Under the pieces are notes generated by a model, which worked only from the letters and a program-made list of their open reading frames with translations, was not told the origin of the DNA and did not search any database. Below are positions 24,049-31,674 of a DNA stretch of 64,000 bases, piece after piece. The stretch lies in assembly GCA_006383075.2 (NCBI GenBank), contig SMNH02000003.1, positions 598,414 to 662,413 on the forward strand, given 5' to 3'. Source of the DNA: Kordia sp. TARA_039_SRF. GTDB taxonomy: Bacteria; Bacteroidota; Bacteroidia; Flavobacteriales; Flavobacteriaceae. Positions within the stretch are counted from its first letter, which is position 1; each line of letters starts with the position of its first letter. Made by a program: the position numbers and the translations under genes.

Positions 24049-24273
24049 ATGAAGAAAAAAAACATCAAATCGCTAAAGTTGAACAAGAGAGCTATTTCTA
24101 ACTTTAACAGCTTACACGGTGGTGCAGCAAGTATGCCAGATCATTCTACATCAAGGTTTTGTATTGAAACGGATATGTGTCCACATGACCCAATTGAAAT
24201 CCCTACCATCGATATTCCTACATTTAACGACAGTTGCTTTTCATTATGCAACGATAAGTGTAACGATTTTTAA
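24049..24273 (+). CDS. RiPP precursor, class I lanthipeptide-like, double-glycine leader
   Basis: MKKKNIKSLKLNKRAISNFNSLHGGA leader; core with five Cys (RFCIETDMCPHD...NDSCFSLCNDKCNDF). Confidence 0.8.
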   Translation: MKKKNIKSLKLNKRAISNFNSLHGGAASMPDHSTSRFCIETDMCPHDPIEIPTIDIPTFNDSCFSLCNDKCNDF

Positions 24274-24305
24274 AAAATAGGAGACTGAATTCTAAGTCAA
24301 AAAAT

Positions 24306-24338
24306 AAGGTTCTTCTTTAATGAAGAGCCTTTTTTATT
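24306..24338. terminator. Shared terminator hairpin between precursor and LytTR gene
   Basis: AAGGTTCTTC-tttaat-GAAGAGCCTT followed by T run; between convergent genes. Confidence 0.75.
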
Positions 24339-25047
24339 TTCCTTGAATTTGCAAAAGTTCAAATAAATGCGCTTTGTACGTTCTACCTATCGGAATGCGC
24401 TTGTCGTGAATGTAGACTTCGTTTCCTGCAATTTTGTCAATGTGATTTTTGTTAATGACAAACGATTTGTGAATTTGCACGAATTGGGTTTCTGGTAGTT
24501 TTTCTTTCCAAGTCCGCAAGGTTCCGATAAAGGATAATTTTTGTTGTTGACTCACCAATGTGAGATAGTTTCGTTCGGATTCGACATAAAAAATATCATC
24601 AAATTGAATTTTATGAAAGGCTTTGTCTACATTTAAAAACAAGGCATCCGACGACTTTTTTTCAACGTTTGTTTCAACGATTGTTGGTTGCAAGCGTTGT
24701 ACTTTTTGAATCGCTTTTAGAAAACGTTCCAACGAAAATGGCTTTACTAAGTAATCAACAATAGTTTCAAACTCAAAACTTTCCACTGCATAATCTGGAT
24801 ACGCTGTAGTCATGATAATCGTTGGCGGATTTTTAAGCGTTCGCAGAAAACTCAATCCAGAAATATCTGGCAGATTGATGTCCAAAAATATCAAATCGAT
24901 ATCTTCCGTATGCAAGCTATCATACGCTTTTAGGGCTGCATTAAACGTCCCTCGCAATTCCAACGATGCTATTTTTGCAATGTAACTTTGCAAAATTCGC
25001 TGTGCAGGAATTTCGTCTTCTATGATGATACAGTTTAGTGGTTTCAT
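24334..25047 (-). CDS. LytTR-family response regulator
   Basis: Receiver IIEDEIPAQRI...DLIFLDINLPDISG; LytTR IFYVESERNYLTL. Confidence 0.95.
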   Translation of the reverse strand: MKPLNCIIIEDEIPAQRILQSYIAKIASLELRGTFNAALKAYDSLHTEDIDLIFLDINLPDISGLSFLRTLKNPPTIIMTTAYPDYAVESFEFETIVDYLVKPFSLERFLKAIQKVQRLQPTIVETNVEKKSSDALFLNVDKAFHKIQFDDIFYVESERNYLTLVSQQQKLSFIGTLRTWKEKLPETQFVQIHKSFVINKNHIDKIAGNEVYIHDKRIPIGRTYKAHLFELLQIQGK

Positions 25048-25150
25048 GTCAATCTTTTTTGCCTACTACAATTAAGTAACTTTTTGTCAAATGAAAATTC
25101 AAGTATCTAAAAAAATAGTTCCGTTCAAATAGCAATATACCTTCCTATTT

Positions 25151-26119
25151 TCATGTCAATTCTAATTTCAATAGTACACGATATGCGTTTTCGGTTTCGA
25201 TGGTTAATGCATGTTTTTCTTTGTACAGTAACGCCAAACGTTTTTGTAAATTTTGCAATCCAATTTGATGATTGGTATTACTTTTTGTAGCGTCAAAAAC
25301 ATTCTCGCACACACATTGTAATACGCCATTTTTAACCTCAATGTGAATAGCAATCCGCGTGTCAATAGTACTGTGTTTAAAAGCATTTTCAATAATAGTG
25401 ATGAGCAATAACGGCGCAATTGTATAGTTTAAATGATCTAACTGTTTTGTATAGGAAATCGTTTTGATGCCTTCCGTTCTAATTTCTTGAAATTTGATGT
25501 AATTGTCAATAAAATTTAGTTCTTTTTCTAGCGGAACAAACGTCGCATTGCTTTCATACAACACATGTTTTAGGTTGTTGGATAGCATTAAAATCAACTC
25601 AGGAACTTGTTCAGGTTTTTCTAGCGAGTAGGAATAAATCGTGTTTAAATTATTAAATAACACATGTGGATTGATTTGCGATTTTAGAAATTTCAACTCC
25701 ATTTCCGTGTGTTTTTGTTGAATAGCTTCAACTTCGTCTTTCTTTTCTAAATAGCGAAATAACATCCAAATAAAGGAGAAAAAAACAATCGGTACAATGG
25801 TTTGCCACACGTAATCGGATAAACATTTGGACACCGAACAGCCACATTCTGCAAAGACATAACAGTACAATTGCGTGGCTAAAAAACTGATAAGTGTAAT
25901 GATAAGAATGTAAATGGCATACCATTTTTTTCGCTCAAAAAACGGCAACAATACAAAATCGTTCACATATACGATAATTACTAAAATGGACAAGTATTGT
26001 AAAAACGGATTTGCCGCCCAATAATAATCTGAAAAGTAAAATAAGGAGACAAAAATAAACAACGCCCAAAACAACGCGTGGATGAGTATTTTGGAAATGG
26101 TATAATTGAAAAATTTCAT
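25151..26119 (-). CDS. LytS-type sensor histidine kinase
   Basis: TM region then FLKSQINPHVLFNNLNTIYSY and IIENAFKHS. Confidence 0.95.
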   Translation of the reverse strand: MKFFNYTISKILIHALFWALFIFVSLFYFSDYYWAANPFLQYLSILVIIVYVNDFVLLPFFERKKWYAIYILIITLISFLATQLYCYVFAECGCSVSKCLSDYVWQTIVPIVFFSFIWMLFRYLEKKDEVEAIQQKHTEMELKFLKSQINPHVLFNNLNTIYSYSLEKPEQVPELILMLSNNLKHVLYESNATFVPLEKELNFIDNYIKFQEIRTEGIKTISYTKQLDHLNYTIAPLLLITIIENAFKHSTIDTRIAIHIEVKNGVLQCVCENVFDATKSNTNHQIGLQNLQKRLALLYKEKHALTIETENAYRVLLKLELT

Positions 26120-26340
26120 GACGTTGCGTATTTCAAACGCTCAAAATACTAAGAAACCGAAGATTGGTCAAAGATTCGTGGACAAAATGCACATTCGGCT
26201 GTACAAACTTCTGAATACAATGAAAAATACACCAATTTTTTAAAATTTTCATTTGTGGAGTTGTTTGTGTCGTAGGTACATTTTTTTGGTTTTCTATTTG
26301 GATTTGAAGGACTTTTGAAACTATCAAAATCAATCAAATT

Positions 26341-27225
26341 ATGAACAGAATTTTTATAGGTGTGATGCTATTTTTTATGTGTCAATTTGTGCTTTCGCAA
26401 GAAGTCAATCAGTTATCCAAAGATGCGCGTGGACGCGAAATGTTATTAGGAGAAATTACCAAAGAAGGACTTACTTCTAATTCTTTTAACACATGGTTTT
26501 CTAAAAATTATGAAGCGTACCAACCTGATGAAGCAATTGTGCAAAAGTTGCAACGAAAATTGAAAAAATATTCCATTACCGTTTTTATGGGCACTTGGTG
26601 CGGCGATAGCAAACGCGAAATCCCCAGACTTTACAAAGTGCTTGATGCTACCAATTTCCCAGAAGAAAAACTACGCGTTATCGGTGCGAACAATGCGCGT
26701 TCAAACTATAAACAAGCACCAAATGGTGAAGAAAAAGGCTTGAACATTCATCGCGTGCCAACGATTATTGTCTATAATAAAAAAGGAAAAGAAGTTGGTC
26801 GTATCGTAGAACATCCTGTGGAAAGTTTGGAAGCCGATTTGCTTCAAATTTGCAGAAAGAAGTCGTATCAACATCACTATCAAATTGTAACGCAATTACA
26901 CAGATTATTTGAGAAAAAAGGAACAGATTACATCAAAGAAAACACAGAAAAAGTTACGCACAAATTACAATCCTACTCCAACAGTTTCAAAGAATTGAAC
27001 ACGTACGGATATGTGTTACTGTACGCAAAAGAGTTTGATAAAGCGATTGCCACATTTACCATTAACACTCAATTATTTCCTGAAACCAAAAACAGTTTTG
27101 ACAGTTTGGCAGAAGCTTATTTCACTATCAAAGATTATAAAAATGCAACCATGTATTACACCAAAGTACTTTCGATAGATGCCAACGATGAGAACGCAAA
27201 AAGTATGCTCGCAAAAATGCAATGA
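26341..27225 (+). CDS. Secreted thioredoxin-fold protein with C-terminal TPR
   Basis: Signal peptide; FMGTWCGDSKREIPR (CxxxK-type); VPTIIVY cis-Pro; TPR-like C-terminus. Confidence 0.87.
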   Translation: MNRIFIGVMLFFMCQFVLSQEVNQLSKDARGREMLLGEITKEGLTSNSFNTWFSKNYEAYQPDEAIVQKLQRKLKKYSITVFMGTWCGDSKREIPRLYKVLDATNFPEEKLRVIGANNARSNYKQAPNGEEKGLNIHRVPTIIVYNKKGKEVGRIVEHPVESLEADLLQICRKKSYQHHYQIVTQLHRLFEKKGTDYIKENTEKVTHKLQSYSNSFKELNTYGYVLLYAKEFDKAIATFTINTQLFPETKNSFDSLAEAYFTIKDYKNATMYYTKVLSIDANDENAKSMLAKMQ

Positions 27226-27255
27226 TAGTTGAATTTACATAAGGTTTGTTCAAAG

Positions 27256-27296
27256 AAGCAACGTGTCTTTTACGTAGAGATACGTTGCTTTTATTT
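27256..27296 (+). terminator. Intrinsic terminator
   Basis: AAGCAACGT...ACGTTGCTTTTATTTT. Confidence 0.7.
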
Positions 27297-27367
27297 TGAG
27301 AAAAATCGTCATAAAAAAAGAGCTAAACTTCTCTTCTTGTATAAATAATTAGTAATTTTAACATATA

Positions 27368-27528
27368 GAAGTGATTTAAACTTTTTCTTATGGTTGCAAA
27401 TTTATCTTGTTTCGCCCTGATTTTGACTTTTTTTCGTAACGTAGCTACGGCTATGCTACTCAAAAAAGACTTCATCAGGTCAAAAAATCTATAATTTTCG
27501 CTACAAAACAAAAAATTTAAACCACTTC
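27368..27528. repeat. 161-bp imperfect palindrome (MITE-like)
   Basis: Left GAAGTGATTTAAACTTTTT pairs with right AAAAATTTAAACCACTTC; inner CCTGAT..GACTTTTTT with AAAAAAGACTTCATCAGG; centre GTAGCTACGGCTATGCTAC. Confidence 0.75.
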
Positions 27529-27613
27529 ATAAAGTATTTCTAATTGAAAATTAACTACCATCGTTTTCAAATACTTTTGTTATCGTAGTACAATCCCGAA
27601 CGTAAGCCTATTT

Positions 27614-29317
27614 ATGAAATTTTTGTTTTCTAGATTTTTAGCATGCTTCTTATTTTTATGCTGTTTTTCAATTCTACATGCGCAGGAACTTCCTGATGAT
27701 GCTTCTTTGGAAGACACGTATGACTTTATCATTAAACATAAATATTCCAATCCAGAATTGGCAAAAAAGTATGCTGAAATCCTTGTCGCAAAAAGTAAGG
27801 TTCAAAAAGATAGTATTCTACTCTACAAGGGATATATTCAATGCTGCAAAATTGCCAACATTGAAGGAAATTATGAACTGGCTATTCAACAATGTGATTC
27901 CGCAATTACAACTGCAATATTACTAAAAAACAAAATTTTCTTAGCAGAGTCCTATCTTGCCAAAGGAAATGCTATTGTATATCTTGGAGATAATAAAAAA
28001 GCACTAAACAACTATACAAATGTATTGAACATTGCTAAGCAAATGAAGGCTTTGGAGTATGAAATATCAGCCCAAGCTAATATTGCCAAGATTAAAAGAC
28101 GTATGGGTTTTCATGAAGAAGCCCTTTCTATTTATAAAAATAATGTGCTTGTTGCAGAGCAACACAATCTTGATAATAAAATGTTTCTTATCAATTCATA
28201 TATGGGCGTTGGTGGTACGTTTTTACGCTTACATAAACCCGATTCTACGTTGAAATATGCTGAAATAGGTTTGCAAAAAAGTTTGGCAATTAACGACATG
28301 GAAGGTGTCAGCTATTTTTATATTGATATTGGTATTGCCCATTTTATCAAAGGAAATTTTGAAACTGCCATTGATTATCTAAAGAAAGCTGAAAAGATTA
28401 CCAAAGGACTGAACAACCAAAATCGCTTGACCGAAATCTATTATTATATTGGGAAATCGTATTTTGAAATGAAGCAATATGATAAAGCAATTTCGTTTTT
28501 ACAATTGGTAGAGAGCATCGTAGAAGAAAAAAATACACACAAGAACGTCACTTTTAATCCGCCAGAGTTATTGGGAACGTATTTGACACTTTCCAACGCG
28601 TACGAAGAAACAAAGCAACAGCATTTACAGTTGGAATACACCGCAAAATATTTAAAATTAAAAGACGCCAACGAAGATGATGATATTGAAGTGTTAAAAG
28701 AATTATACGAAACAGCACGAAAAAAAAATACCTCGTTAACTTCGCTTACGTCAGAATTAAAAAATAGCCTTATCTACGTTATTTTATTTAGTGTTTTTGC
28801 GATTGGATTATGTGCTTTTTTACTATTCAAATTTTTAAAAGCAAAAAAGCAGAACAAAGTTATTTTTGAGAAATTAGTTGCAGAAATTGAGAATAAAAAA
28901 GAATCGAAAGCGACACCTGAATTCAATATTGAAGATGCGAAAGTGGAAGCTATTTTAGAGCGTTTGGACAAACTGGAAGACACGCTATTTTTCTTAAACA
29001 GTAATTGTACGTTGCAAAGTGTGGCGAAAAAATTAAAAACAAATACTAACTATTTATCAAAAATCATCAATAAGTACAAGCAGCAAAAGTTTAATGAATA
29101 TGTAAACAATTTGCGTATTCAATATGTATTGCAACGATTGAAAGAAGATCCGAAATTTCGAAACTATTCCATTAAGCATATTGCAGAAGAAATTGGCTAT
29201 AAAAGCACCAATTCGTTCACAAAATATTTTAAAGCTTCCACCAAACTGTATCCATCGTATTACATTAAGAATTTGGGAAATACCCAAGAAAATACTACCT
29301 CAAATTCGAAAATTTGA
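27614..29317 (+). CDS. TPR-containing membrane protein with C-terminal AraC-type HTH
   Basis: Signal/TPR repeats, TM IYVILFSVFAIGLCAFLLF, C-terminal FRNYSIKHIAEEIGYKSTNSFTKYFKASTKLYPSYY. Confidence 0.92.
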   Translation: MKFLFSRFLACFLFLCCFSILHAQELPDDASLEDTYDFIIKHKYSNPELAKKYAEILVAKSKVQKDSILLYKGYIQCCKIANIEGNYELAIQQCDSAITTAILLKNKIFLAESYLAKGNAIVYLGDNKKALNNYTNVLNIAKQMKALEYEISAQANIAKIKRRMGFHEEALSIYKNNVLVAEQHNLDNKMFLINSYMGVGGTFLRLHKPDSTLKYAEIGLQKSLAINDMEGVSYFYIDIGIAHFIKGNFETAIDYLKKAEKITKGLNNQNRLTEIYYYIGKSYFEMKQYDKAISFLQLVESIVEEKNTHKNVTFNPPELLGTYLTLSNAYEETKQQHLQLEYTAKYLKLKDANEDDDIEVLKELYETARKKNTSLTSLTSELKNSLIYVILFSVFAIGLCAFLLFKFLKAKKQNKVIFEKLVAEIENKKESKATPEFNIEDAKVEAILERLDKLEDTLFFLNSNCTLQSVAKKLKTNTNYLSKIINKYKQQKFNEYVNNLRIQYVLQRLKEDPKFRNYSIKHIAEEIGYKSTNSFTKYFKASTKLYPSYYIKNLGNTQENTTSNSKI

Positions 29318-29396
29318 GGTTTGTCTGGAATCATTTTTTACCTACTCGCTAATAAATAATTTATCTTTCAAATAATAATCAACTAAAAAACTAATT

Positions 29397-29564
29397 ATGA
29401 AAGTAAAGCGTTTAGAAAAAATGCAATTAAAAAAAGAAACTATTTCCCTAATCAATCAAAGAATTTCCGCACAACTGAAAGGTGGAACGCGCACAGACAG
29501 TACTTCAGATTTGAATGGAACGACAGGTATAGAAACGCATTGTGCAGATGTTGTTTGTTATTAA
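29397..29564 (+). CDS. RiPP precursor, class I lanthipeptide-like (55 aa)
   Basis: Hand-translated (absent from ORF track): MKVKRLEKMQLKKETISLINQRISAQLKGGTRTDSTSDLNGTTGIETHCADVVCY*. Confidence 0.78.
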   Translation: MKVKRLEKMQLKKETISLINQRISAQLKGGTRTDSTSDLNGTTGIETHCADVVCY

Positions 29565-29586
29565 AAAAATAGAAAACTTAGTAGTA

Positions 29587-29618
29587 AAATCGGGAATCAA
29601 CACTCCCGATTTTTTTAT
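29587..29618 (+). terminator. Intrinsic terminator after 29397 precursor
   Basis: AAATCGGGA-atcaacac-TCCCGATTTTTTT. Confidence 0.85.
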
Positions 29619-29762
29619 GTCTTTTCATTACTAATTCGTTTAAAAAAAGTCTTCCCTCAAATCCTCTAAATTTTGAAGCTATTGCGGTATCGTTCTTTGT
29701 TTTCGTTCTTTATGAATCCTACATTGTAACTGATAAATTATTAACAACCATAATATTTAAGT

Positions 29763-29918
29763 ATGAAAACTCAAAAAAGAAAATCATTAAAGCTTGTAAA
29801 AGCATCAATCGCTAGTTTGGAAACTAAAACATCACAAGAAATTGTAGGTGGAGTTACAAGAATTGGAGATTGCCAAAGTAGAACATCTTTGTGTATCACT
29901 TCATGCCATGCACACTAA
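29763..29918 (+). CDS. RiPP precursor, class I lanthipeptide-like (51 aa), tandem paralogue A
   Basis: Hand-translated: MKTQKRKSLKLVKASIASLETKTSQEIVGGVTRIGDCQSRTSLCITSCHAH*. Confidence 0.82.
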   Translation: MKTQKRKSLKLVKASIASLETKTSQEIVGGVTRIGDCQSRTSLCITSCHAH

Positions 29919-29949
29919 ACCGAATCACCAACCTATTAAAATGTAAACC

Positions 29950-30093
29950 ATGAAAACTCAAAAAAGAAAATCATTAAAGTTTGTAAAAGCATCTATTGCA
30001 AGTTTAGAAACAACTGCAGTAAAAGGTATACAAGGAGGAAGAAACTATTCTTTACCTCGAACTTTATGTATCACTTCTTGTGTAGCACACTAG
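29950..30093 (+). CDS. RiPP precursor, class I lanthipeptide-like (47 aa), tandem paralogue B
   Basis: Hand-translated: MKTQKRKSLKFVKASIASLETTAVKGIQGGRNYSLPRTLCITSCVAH*; leader nearly identical to 29763. Confidence 0.82.
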   Translation: MKTQKRKSLKFVKASIASLETTAVKGIQGGRNYSLPRTLCITSCVAH

Positions 30094-30150
30094 TAAATAT
30101 TTTATTAGATTATGTTAAAGGCTCTTGTAAATTTTTATAGGAGTCTTTTT

Positions 30151-31296
30151 TTATATCTTACACAAAATATCAGCAGCTTTCGCTAGCGTTTCTTCAGTTT
30201 TAGCAAAGCAGAAACGAAGCAATTTATGATCTTCGTTGTTGGTGTTGAAAACCGATAACGGAATGGACGCAATTTTGTGTTCTTTAGTCAAGCGTTTGGC
30301 GAATTCCACATCCGATTCATCAGTGATATTTTCATAAGAAAGCACTTGAAAATACGTTCCTTCTGATGGTGTAAACGTAAATCGTGACGTTTTGATAGCT
30401 TCCAAAAAGAAATCGCGTTTTTGTTGAAAAAAGCTTGGTAATTGCAGATAGTTATCAGGATTTTGTAAATACGTTCCAATACCAATCTGCATCGGATGAT
30501 TGACCGAAAACACATTGAATTGATGTACTTTTTTAAACTCGTCCATCAATGCTTTTGGCGCTACACAATAGCCCATTTTCCAACCAGTATTGTGAAATGT
30601 TTTCCCAAAAGAAGCCGTGATAAAAGCTCGTTCTGCCAATTTTGGAAACAAGGCTGCACTTTGGTGTTGTGCATCATCAAAAATAATGTGTTCGTACACT
30701 TCATCGCTTAACAAAATGATATTGGTATTTTCTAAAATTGTGGACAATTCAAGCATATCTTGTTTTGACAATACCGTTCCGCTCGGATTGTGCGGCGTAT
30801 TAATAACCATCATTTTTGTTTTGGAAGTGATTTTAGTTCGCACTTCATCCCAATCTACCGTAAATTCTTTGCCTTGTAACTGAATTGGCACAATGTTTCC
30901 GCCATTGGCTTCTACGGCTGGCGCGTAACAATCGTACGCGGGTGTAAAAATAATTACCTCATCATCTGGACGCACAAAAGCACTGACAATGGTAAAAATA
31001 GCTTGCGTTGCTCCTGCTGTAACTACTATTTCTGTATCTGGATGATACTTTCGCTGATACAAATACTCCATTTTTTCTGCAATCGCTTCCCGCAATATCA
31101 AAGCGCCAGGCATCGGTGCGTATTGGTTATAATTTTCACGCAATGCCTGCTGCACCAAATCAATCAACACAGAATCTGAAGGAAAATTGGGAAAGCCTTG
31201 CGATAAATTAATCGCATTTTCTTTTGCCGCTAATTGACTCATTATGGTAAAAATTGTTGTTCCTACGTTGGGAAGTTTGGAAGTATGTTGGAGCAT
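30151..31296 (-). CDS. PLP-dependent aminotransferase (methionine aminotransferase-like)
   Basis: INLSQGFPNFPSD, NTPHNPSGTVL, SDEVYEHIIFD, SFGKTFHNTGWKMGY. Confidence 0.95.
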   Translation of the reverse strand: MLQHTSKLPNVGTTIFTIMSQLAAKENAINLSQGFPNFPSDSVLIDLVQQALRENYNQYAPMPGALILREAIAEKMEYLYQRKYHPDTEIVVTAGATQAIFTIVSAFVRPDDEVIIFTPAYDCYAPAVEANGGNIVPIQLQGKEFTVDWDEVRTKITSKTKMMVINTPHNPSGTVLSKQDMLELSTILENTNIILLSDEVYEHIIFDDAQHQSAALFPKLAERAFITASFGKTFHNTGWKMGYCVAPKALMDEFKKVHQFNVFSVNHPMQIGIGTYLQNPDNYLQLPSFFQQKRDFFLEAIKTSRFTFTPSEGTYFQVLSYENITDESDVEFAKRLTKEHKIASIPLSVFNTNNEDHKLLRFCFAKTEETLAKAADILCKI

Positions 31297-31473
31297 TTTT
31301 TTCTGGGTTTTTGGTTTTGAGTGTTGGGTTTTGTTTTTTAGATTTTCTAAAATTCGTGATTTTACATGGCTTTTTGAAATGAAACGCTGAAAAATATAGG
31401 AATACGGGAAAGCCGTACTCTTTTTTAAAAAATAGTGCGTAGTATTATACTGAAAACCAAAAACTTATATCTC

Positions 31474-31674
31474 ATGAAAAAAAGAAAAATTACCGCATTG
31501 ACTTTACACAAAAAATCAATTTCCAACTTAACAAACCATGCAATTCGTGGAGGAGATGACAGCTCAACGTGTTTTACAGAATTAGACGCTTGCAATACCA
31601 AAGATGTCATTCGATGTCAAACAGGAGACGCCTGTCCAACAGTGTATGGCTGTCCTTCATTTGTGAGATGTTAA
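31474..31674 (+). CDS. RiPP precursor, class I lanthipeptide-like (66 aa)
   Basis: MKKRKITALTLHKKSISNLTNHAIRGG leader; core with six Cys, last four spaced C-x5-C-x5-C-x5-C. ORF track start (31435) is 13 codons too far upstream. Confidence 0.82.
   Translation: MKKRKITALTLHKKSISNLTNHAIRGGDDSSTCFTELDACNTKDVIRCQTGDACPTVYGCPSFVRC

Follow-up and report, generated by a model that had tools for sequence, protein, structure and literature searches.

Five short open reading frames (ORFs) on the forward strand of a 64,000-nucleotide stretch of the Kordia sp. TARA_039_SRF genome (hereafter the window; C3:598414-662413 in a source assembly of 4.59 Mb and 27 contigs) are best explained overall as genes of class I lanthipeptide-type precursors that belong to a genus-wide system, in which one enzyme set would act on many substrates. 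Judged from the sequence data, a probability of about 0.75 is assigned to this reading. All five ORFs, which a first inspection of the bare DNA (the original prediction) had placed here, are present, and three of them are indeed shorter than 60 amino acids (aa). E values in the following list refer to an iterated leader model:

24049-24273, + strand: lanthipeptide-type precursor of 74 aa; leader ending in HGG, core with 5 Cys, structural type (E 1.7e-10)
29397-29564, + strand: regulator-linked peptide of 55 aa with a double-glycine (GG) leader; core with 2 Cys, ending in [TS]xC-x4-C[YF] in most orthologues; proposed ligand
29763-29918, + strand: precursor of 51 aa; core ..CITSCHAH with 3 Cys, structural type (E 2.8e-9)
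29950-30093, + strand: precursor of 47 aa; core ..CITSCVAH with 2 Cys, tandem paralogue of 29763 (E 1.9e-9)
31474-31674, + strand: precursor of 66 aa from the ATG; core with 6 Cys, structural type (E 1.8e-11)

All five products combine a basic N-terminus with a leader of the LxLxKxx[IV][SA]xL type and GG. In the alignment, MK, a Lys and an Ile/Ser motif in the leader, GG, and a core with Cys are common to all. The common leader pattern described in the original prediction therefore stands for the motif type and GG in all five; in 29397, the motif is looser (MQLKKETISLIN). The pattern corresponds to the LxLxKx5L leader of Bacteroidetes class I precursors, which often ends in GG, with a C39 protease encoded in the same cluster (Walker et al., 2020; PMC7268733). 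Pfam detected essentially nothing in the five ORFs, and 29763 shows a weak match to TIGR04149, a family of radical SAM-modified peptides. The leader group of Bacteroidota class I lanthipeptides is represented by the NCBIfam models NF038153 and NF038158 and by PedA15.2 of Pedobacter lusitanus. Searched singly with NF038153 (class I lanthipeptide leader L1a), the window peptides reach 14.2-17.5 bits (E 0.004-0.04; curated cut-off 22) and are, as far as their sequences tell, relatives of lant_leader_L1a, not formal members. The leader model iterated on the genome assigns them E values of 2.3e-7 to 1.8e-11; these values are partly circular, such sequences having been used to refine the model.

The window peptides are a small sample of a large dispersed family. 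NF038153 finds 117 matches in the genome at E<=10, 26 of them over the cut-off, and 106 possess an M[KR] start and the leader. Among ORFs of the fetched stretches, the iterated leader model recovers 137 real and 0 residue-shuffled ORFs at E<0.01 (141 and 0 at E<0.1; 144 and 1 at E<1). This count of 137-144 is a lower bound, covering about one-fifth of the genome in stretches chosen around NF038153 matches. The 144 precursors are spread over 17 contigs in 87 groups, 52 of which are single genes. In the 137 GG precursors, Cys is nearly confined to the core (11.5%, versus 0.05% in the leader, 0.7% in long ORFs, and 3.6% in other small ORFs taken as control); Ser/Thr makes up 19.5% of the cores, and 135/137 cores contain Cys plus Ser/Thr. 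The original prediction of five orphan precursors was right in that these are real, but understated the scale, as at least 137 exist in the genome; its proposal to look for further peptides with this leader returned well over 100. Genome-wide, the 200 bases upstream of precursor genes show a mild enrichment of the words TATTAACT, ATTAACTT, and TTTATAAA. A common promoter motif built from words such as TATTAACT and TTTATAAA was dropped as weak because they are A+T-rich.

As originally stated, the window harbors no LanB, LanC, or C39 gene; every match in the genome lies outside it. Elsewhere, the genome encodes exactly one LanB (C1:276359-278329; glutamylation domain PF04738, E 6e-151), with matches to NisB and MibB-type proteins among PDB structures. 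The elimination domain PF14028 (SpaB_C) resides on a separate protein encoded by the ORF next to LanB (E 1.4e-72). The LanC of this cluster (PF05147, E 1.2e-45) carries the zinc motifs WCYG at 263 and CHG at 314 and matches NisC and LanC-like structures. The cluster is organized as follows:

C1:262000-281500 (LanB cluster L042), one strand: C39-ABC exporter and HlyD (Pfam)
C1:262000-281500 (LanB cluster L042), other strand: LanC, LanB, PF14028 protein, two regulators with tetratricopeptide repeats (TPR) and an AraC domain, and several precursors (Pfam and leader model)

The sequence hallmarks of a class I lanthipeptide system are found together: LanB with both domains, a separate zinc-motif LanC, and precursors with the leader and a Cys/Ser/Thr core. 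The leaders of dispersed and LanB-cluster precursors fit one model, and the same leader family occurs within LanB clusters of Kordia, Aquimarina, Lacinutrix, Leptobacterium, and Psychroserpens, genera in which the order LanC, LanB, PF14028 protein is kept. The closest LanBs among named genomes are those of K. periserrulae (98%), the metagenome-assembled genome Kordia sp. MAG ALOHA_ZT_18 (94%), and K. algicida OT-1 (91%). With high probability, LanB and the split SpaB_C protein would bind the common leader and dehydrate core Ser/Thr in trans, LanC would then close the lanthionine rings, and the C39 domain would cut after GG, the product being exported via ABC/HlyD. In-trans maturation of dispersed precursors by one enzyme set, as envisaged in the original prediction, is strongly supported by the sequence data: a single LanB cluster lies elsewhere, together with well over 100 precursors sharing the leader, and the search for LanB, LanC, and C39 genes outside the window was successful for all three.

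The distribution of both components points in the same direction. All 11 Kordia genomes encode exactly one LanB and have 45-88 NF038153 matches each (E<=0.1), versus 0-5 in each of 49 other genomes of the order. In a sample of the phylum, scored for at most 19 candidates per genome and thus usable for presence only and not for counts, 11/396 genomes have any match at E<=0.01, G000 among them. A tandem, not dispersed, arrangement is seen in another member of the Flavobacteriaceae (G262), where at least 19 NF038153 precursors lie within 3.3 kb (C1:2257066-2260358). Particularly informative is G004, a Kordia genome in a single contig, with one LanB, one LanC-like gene beside it, and 50 precursor matches. 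Since this is its sole LanC-like gene, the pair represents the only LanC-dependent route of classes I-V seen there. By elimination (LanM occurs in 3/11 and a class V-like LanC in 10/11 Kordia genomes), the LanB/LanC pair would be the one LanC-dependent system found that could act on the dispersed precursors of all Kordia genomes; the search did not extend to radical SAM and YcaO enzymes.

Several observations weigh against this assignment. All five window peptides stay below the curated cut-off of NF038153, some regulator-linked peptides contain few Cys or only one, and lanthionine enzymes of other types are encoded in the genome (LanM of class II, a class V-like set, and LanC-like proteins standing alone). 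As to the Cys-poor peptides, not all regulator-linked peptides need bear lanthionine. The dispersed precursors might also be secreted GG peptides that are unmodified or modified otherwise (by radical SAM or YcaO enzymes or by disulfides), the LanB cluster serving only its own 4-5 precursors. GG leaders are indeed also present on unmodified bacteriocins and on radical SAM peptides, and the TIGR04149 match of 29763 and the single Cys in some regulator-linked peptides fit this explanation. It is nevertheless considered improbable, given that precursor expansion and LanB coincide, that one leader model accommodates dispersed and LanB-cluster precursors, and that the cores are enriched in both Cys and Ser/Thr.

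Modification by one of the other lanthionine enzymes instead of LanB is also to be weighed, as the following genes are present in the genome:

L132:4768-7638 (C5, about 126.8-129.6 kb): class II LanM (TIGR03897, 770 bits)
L131:5663-9057 (C3, about 479.7-483.1 kb): neighbouring genes for an APH-like kinase, a HopA1-family protein, and a LanC-like protein, a set resembling a class V lanthipeptide synthetase

Stand-alone LanC-like proteins are a third candidate: two precursors of the family, C1:445351 and C1:579448, adjoin LanC-like genes in the absence of LanB. The LanC-like genes beside lone precursors (L070:5501-7060 and L073:1873-3852) encode 428 aa and 534 aa, the latter with a weak C-terminal LanC match. 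The distribution makes LanM or the class V-like enzymes unlikely as the in-trans enzyme. Among the 11 Kordia genomes, a LanC match of LanM size is restricted to the genome studied here, G002, and G006, and G004 lacks the class V-like LanC and possesses only the LanB-linked LanC, yet has its 50 precursor matches. Moreover, LanB clusters of other genera hold the same leader family, and a likelier partner of LanM is available in separate peptides with nif11-like leaders. On balance, modification by these enzymes appears highly improbable. The nif11/NHLP-like peptides, five in number (C2:304717-306358; ELSDEQLELVAGG), are encoded near an NHLM exporter pair (TIGR03796/TIGR03797) and an outer-membrane efflux protein (L133; C2, 312-317.5 kb); peptides and exporter are, by sequence, a putative second system for ribosomally synthesized and post-translationally modified peptides.

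The window peptides are conserved in relatives. Other Kordia genomes keep the gene order nitrilase, response regulator, histidine kinase, thioredoxin-like protein, TPR-AraC regulator, 29397, further peptides, aminotransferase, and MutS-like protein, with small local losses and insertions. Orthologues of 29397 are found in 10/10 other Kordia genomes, 79-93 nucleotides (nt) behind the orthologous regulator, and are followed in other Kordia by peptides related to 29763. Syntenic orthologues of 31474 occur in four genomes (G002, G005, G008, and G001) and homologues of 29950 in G002, G003, G006, and G004. A near-identical orthologue of 24049 occupies the same slot in G003 only; in K. algicida, the slot contains a different precursor. 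For the core of 31474, comparison with G002 gave rates of nonsynonymous (dN) and synonymous (dS) substitution of 0.017 and 0.68, respectively; for the core of 24049 versus G003, dN is 0.08 with saturated dS. Because of synteny and a dN well below dS, the window ORFs are regarded as real genes. That they are spurious or decaying, as their shortness, low G+C content, and mostly sub-cut-off scores might suggest, has practically no probability left, chance ORFs being ruled out by the shuffled controls (which yielded none), synteny, and dN/dS, and purifying selection with synteny refuting this explanation for 24049, 29397, and 31474. Conservation in relatives, on which the original prediction had been made to depend, is hence found. 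Structural precursors would, from these comparisons, turn over at fixed sites. Directly adjoining 24049, a LytTR-type response regulator and a LytS-type histidine kinase (24334-26119) are conserved through Kordia. In G009, a different GG peptide (MLKNIEKIGKPLSKKEQQAINGGG...; L195:3156-3290) lies in the slot near the response regulator. It is resembled by a peptide of the genome studied here, LSKKEQHAIHGG, which is encoded behind the regulator C15:81984.

A second feature of the window, the pairing of a regulator with a leader-type peptide, had escaped the first inspection, as had the scale and the genus-wide pattern. The regulator is the following:

27614-29317, + strand: regulator of 567 aa with TPR, a transmembrane (TM) helix, and an AraC domain (Pfam TPR_12 1e-18, HTH_18 8e-13)

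It consists of an N-terminal signal sequence, TPR at about 32-332, a TM helix at about 386-404 (hydropathy), and a C-terminal AraC-type helix-turn-helix (HTH_18). In the AlphaFold2 model (mean pLDDT 85), a long helix links the TPR superhelix to the HTH. The protein is predicted to be a periplasmic sensor with a cytoplasmic DNA-binding domain. Orthologues with 63-83% identity are present in 10/10 other Kordia genomes. In the window, 29397 starts 79 nt after the regulator gene. Near-full-length members of the regulator family number 13 in this genome; the other Kordia genomes contain 15-48 family matches at E<=1e-20. A leader-type peptide on the same strand follows 12/13 regulators, normally 79-134 nt after the stop (for C15:81839, the peptide ATG falls into this range once an upstream in-frame ATG is set aside), versus 36/683 other genes of the same precursor-selected stretches (P ~6e-15). 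In other Kordia, a GG peptide lies within 215 nt of the regulator at 26 of the 28 loci that could be read. Among non-Kordia Flavobacteriaceae, the pair exists at 9/28 loci, and all nine genomes encode one LanB; of three checked genomes with a peptide-less regulator, two lack LanB. As regulator/peptide pairs adjoin LanB in Aquimarina, the cassette probably arose inside LanB clusters and then dispersed in Kordia.

The arrangement invites a signalling proposal. At 27614-30093, the product of 29397 would be the ligand of the periplasmic TPR domain, and the cytoplasmic AraC domain of the ligand-bound regulator would control the downstream peptide genes 29763 and 29950; correspondingly, each of about 13 regulators might, together with its own peptide, form a local circuit for peptide sensing. 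As a general idea, this receptor-ligand relation is put forward tentatively, at odds somewhat short of even. The cores of the linked peptides follow the regulator clade, with [TS]xC....C[YF] behind 27614 orthologues, PMSQAPDxxT[IV]CY in the C5:89981 group, and TRPDSL or a close variant in the C15:81984 group; the precursors behind the linked peptides vary between species. Regulator similarity correlates with core similarity in 19 non-orthologous pairs (Mantel r 0.31, p 0.003). On the negative side, it correlates with leader similarity as well (r 0.38), so that joint duplication of the pair explains part or all of the signal and recognition is unproven. Furthermore, regulator C1:205600 has no peptide, at two loci of other Kordia the first peptide is located at 361 or 454 nt, and a peptide, once exported, would still need access to the TPR domain in the periplasm.

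Nearly an even chance is given to another explanation, in which the linked peptide is no more than the leading precursor of its operon, with the TPR-AraC regulator sensing some other cue, such as glycans, envelope stress, or a prey signal. Bacteroidota membrane regulators of similar build often respond to non-peptide cues, and TPR domains bind many partners, the best fold matches here being to eukaryotic LGN. The linked peptides, however, form leader and core subfamilies of their own, with a core motif for each regulator clade, while the precursors behind them turn over, and structures of Rap phosphatases in complex with pheromone peptides are also among the matches of the TPR domain, at scores below those of LGN and of many other TPR proteins. 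The receptor-ligand proposal can be extended to Kordia and some relatives as a whole, with single-protein membrane receptors that would each sense their own lanthionine-bearing pheromone from one LanB/LanC set, and up to dozens of circuits that would operate in parallel within a single cell and switch on more than 100 dispersed lanthipeptides. This full version is considered doubtful. If it were true, it would represent Gram-negative modified-peptide signalling, for which no precedent was found in the literature searched. To our knowledge, little is known about peptide communication in Flavobacteriaceae, for which the regulator/peptide pairs provide a testable proposal of signalling by modified peptides.

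Chemistry and leader of Bacteroidota class I lanthipeptides are already known; new are the scale and dispersal of a class I set and the TPR-TM-AraC/peptide cassette. A literature search, which covered few subscription papers, found no report of dispersed many-precursor class I sets or of TPR-AraC/peptide pairs. If the in-trans reading is true, the genus offers a natural library for studying how one LanB/LanC pair handles more than 100 cores. Mining based on clusters misses most of these precursors; antiSMASH on K. antarctica, for comparison, listed lanthipeptide as one cluster type (PMC7477175).

Compared with known systems, the regulator/peptide pairs resemble those of the RRNPP family (Rap-Phr, PlcR-PapR, Rgg-SHP, ComR-ComS) in that a small secreted-peptide gene lies directly downstream of a TPR regulator gene. 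RRNPP regulators, however, are cytoplasmic, bind a re-imported peptide, and possess an N-terminal XRE-type HTH or Rap domain, none of which applies to the Kordia regulator with its predicted periplasmic TPR, TM helix, and C-terminal AraC HTH, its GG-leader peptide with a Cys/Ser/Thr core, and its Gram-negative host. As in nisin autoinduction, the genes might be under the control of their own lanthipeptide product; NisRK is a two-component system, whereas a single TPR-TM-AraC protein would suffice in Kordia. With other class I lanthipeptides of Bacteroidota, the system shares the leader motif, GG, the cluster C39 protease, the split/standard LanB, and LanC. Precursors of the former are described within the LanB/LanC cluster, whereas nearly all of those in Kordia are located away from it.

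The closest analogue is provided by the prochlorosins and synechococsins of marine picocyanobacteria, where one ProcM-type enzyme processes scattered precursors with conserved leaders and variable cores; MIT9313 has 29 of them, and a Synechococcus strain as many as 83 putative ones (PMC9872173; PMC10783134). A promiscuous synthetase (ProcM or SyncM in the cyanobacteria), many scattered GG-leader precursors, and hypervariable Cys-rich cores are features that the Kordia system would share with them. The prochlorosin system is of class II, with a single LanM, Nif11-type leaders, and no more than 83 putative precursors per strain, the largest set found in the literature; Kordia, by contrast, has a class I set of LanB, SpaB_C, and LanC, the LxLxKx5L leader, at least 137 precursors, and regulator-linked peptides in a member of the Bacteroidota. 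By analogy, the Kordia system appears to work like the prochlorosin system without being a member of it and, if the reading proposed here is true, would be its class I counterpart in Bacteroidota.

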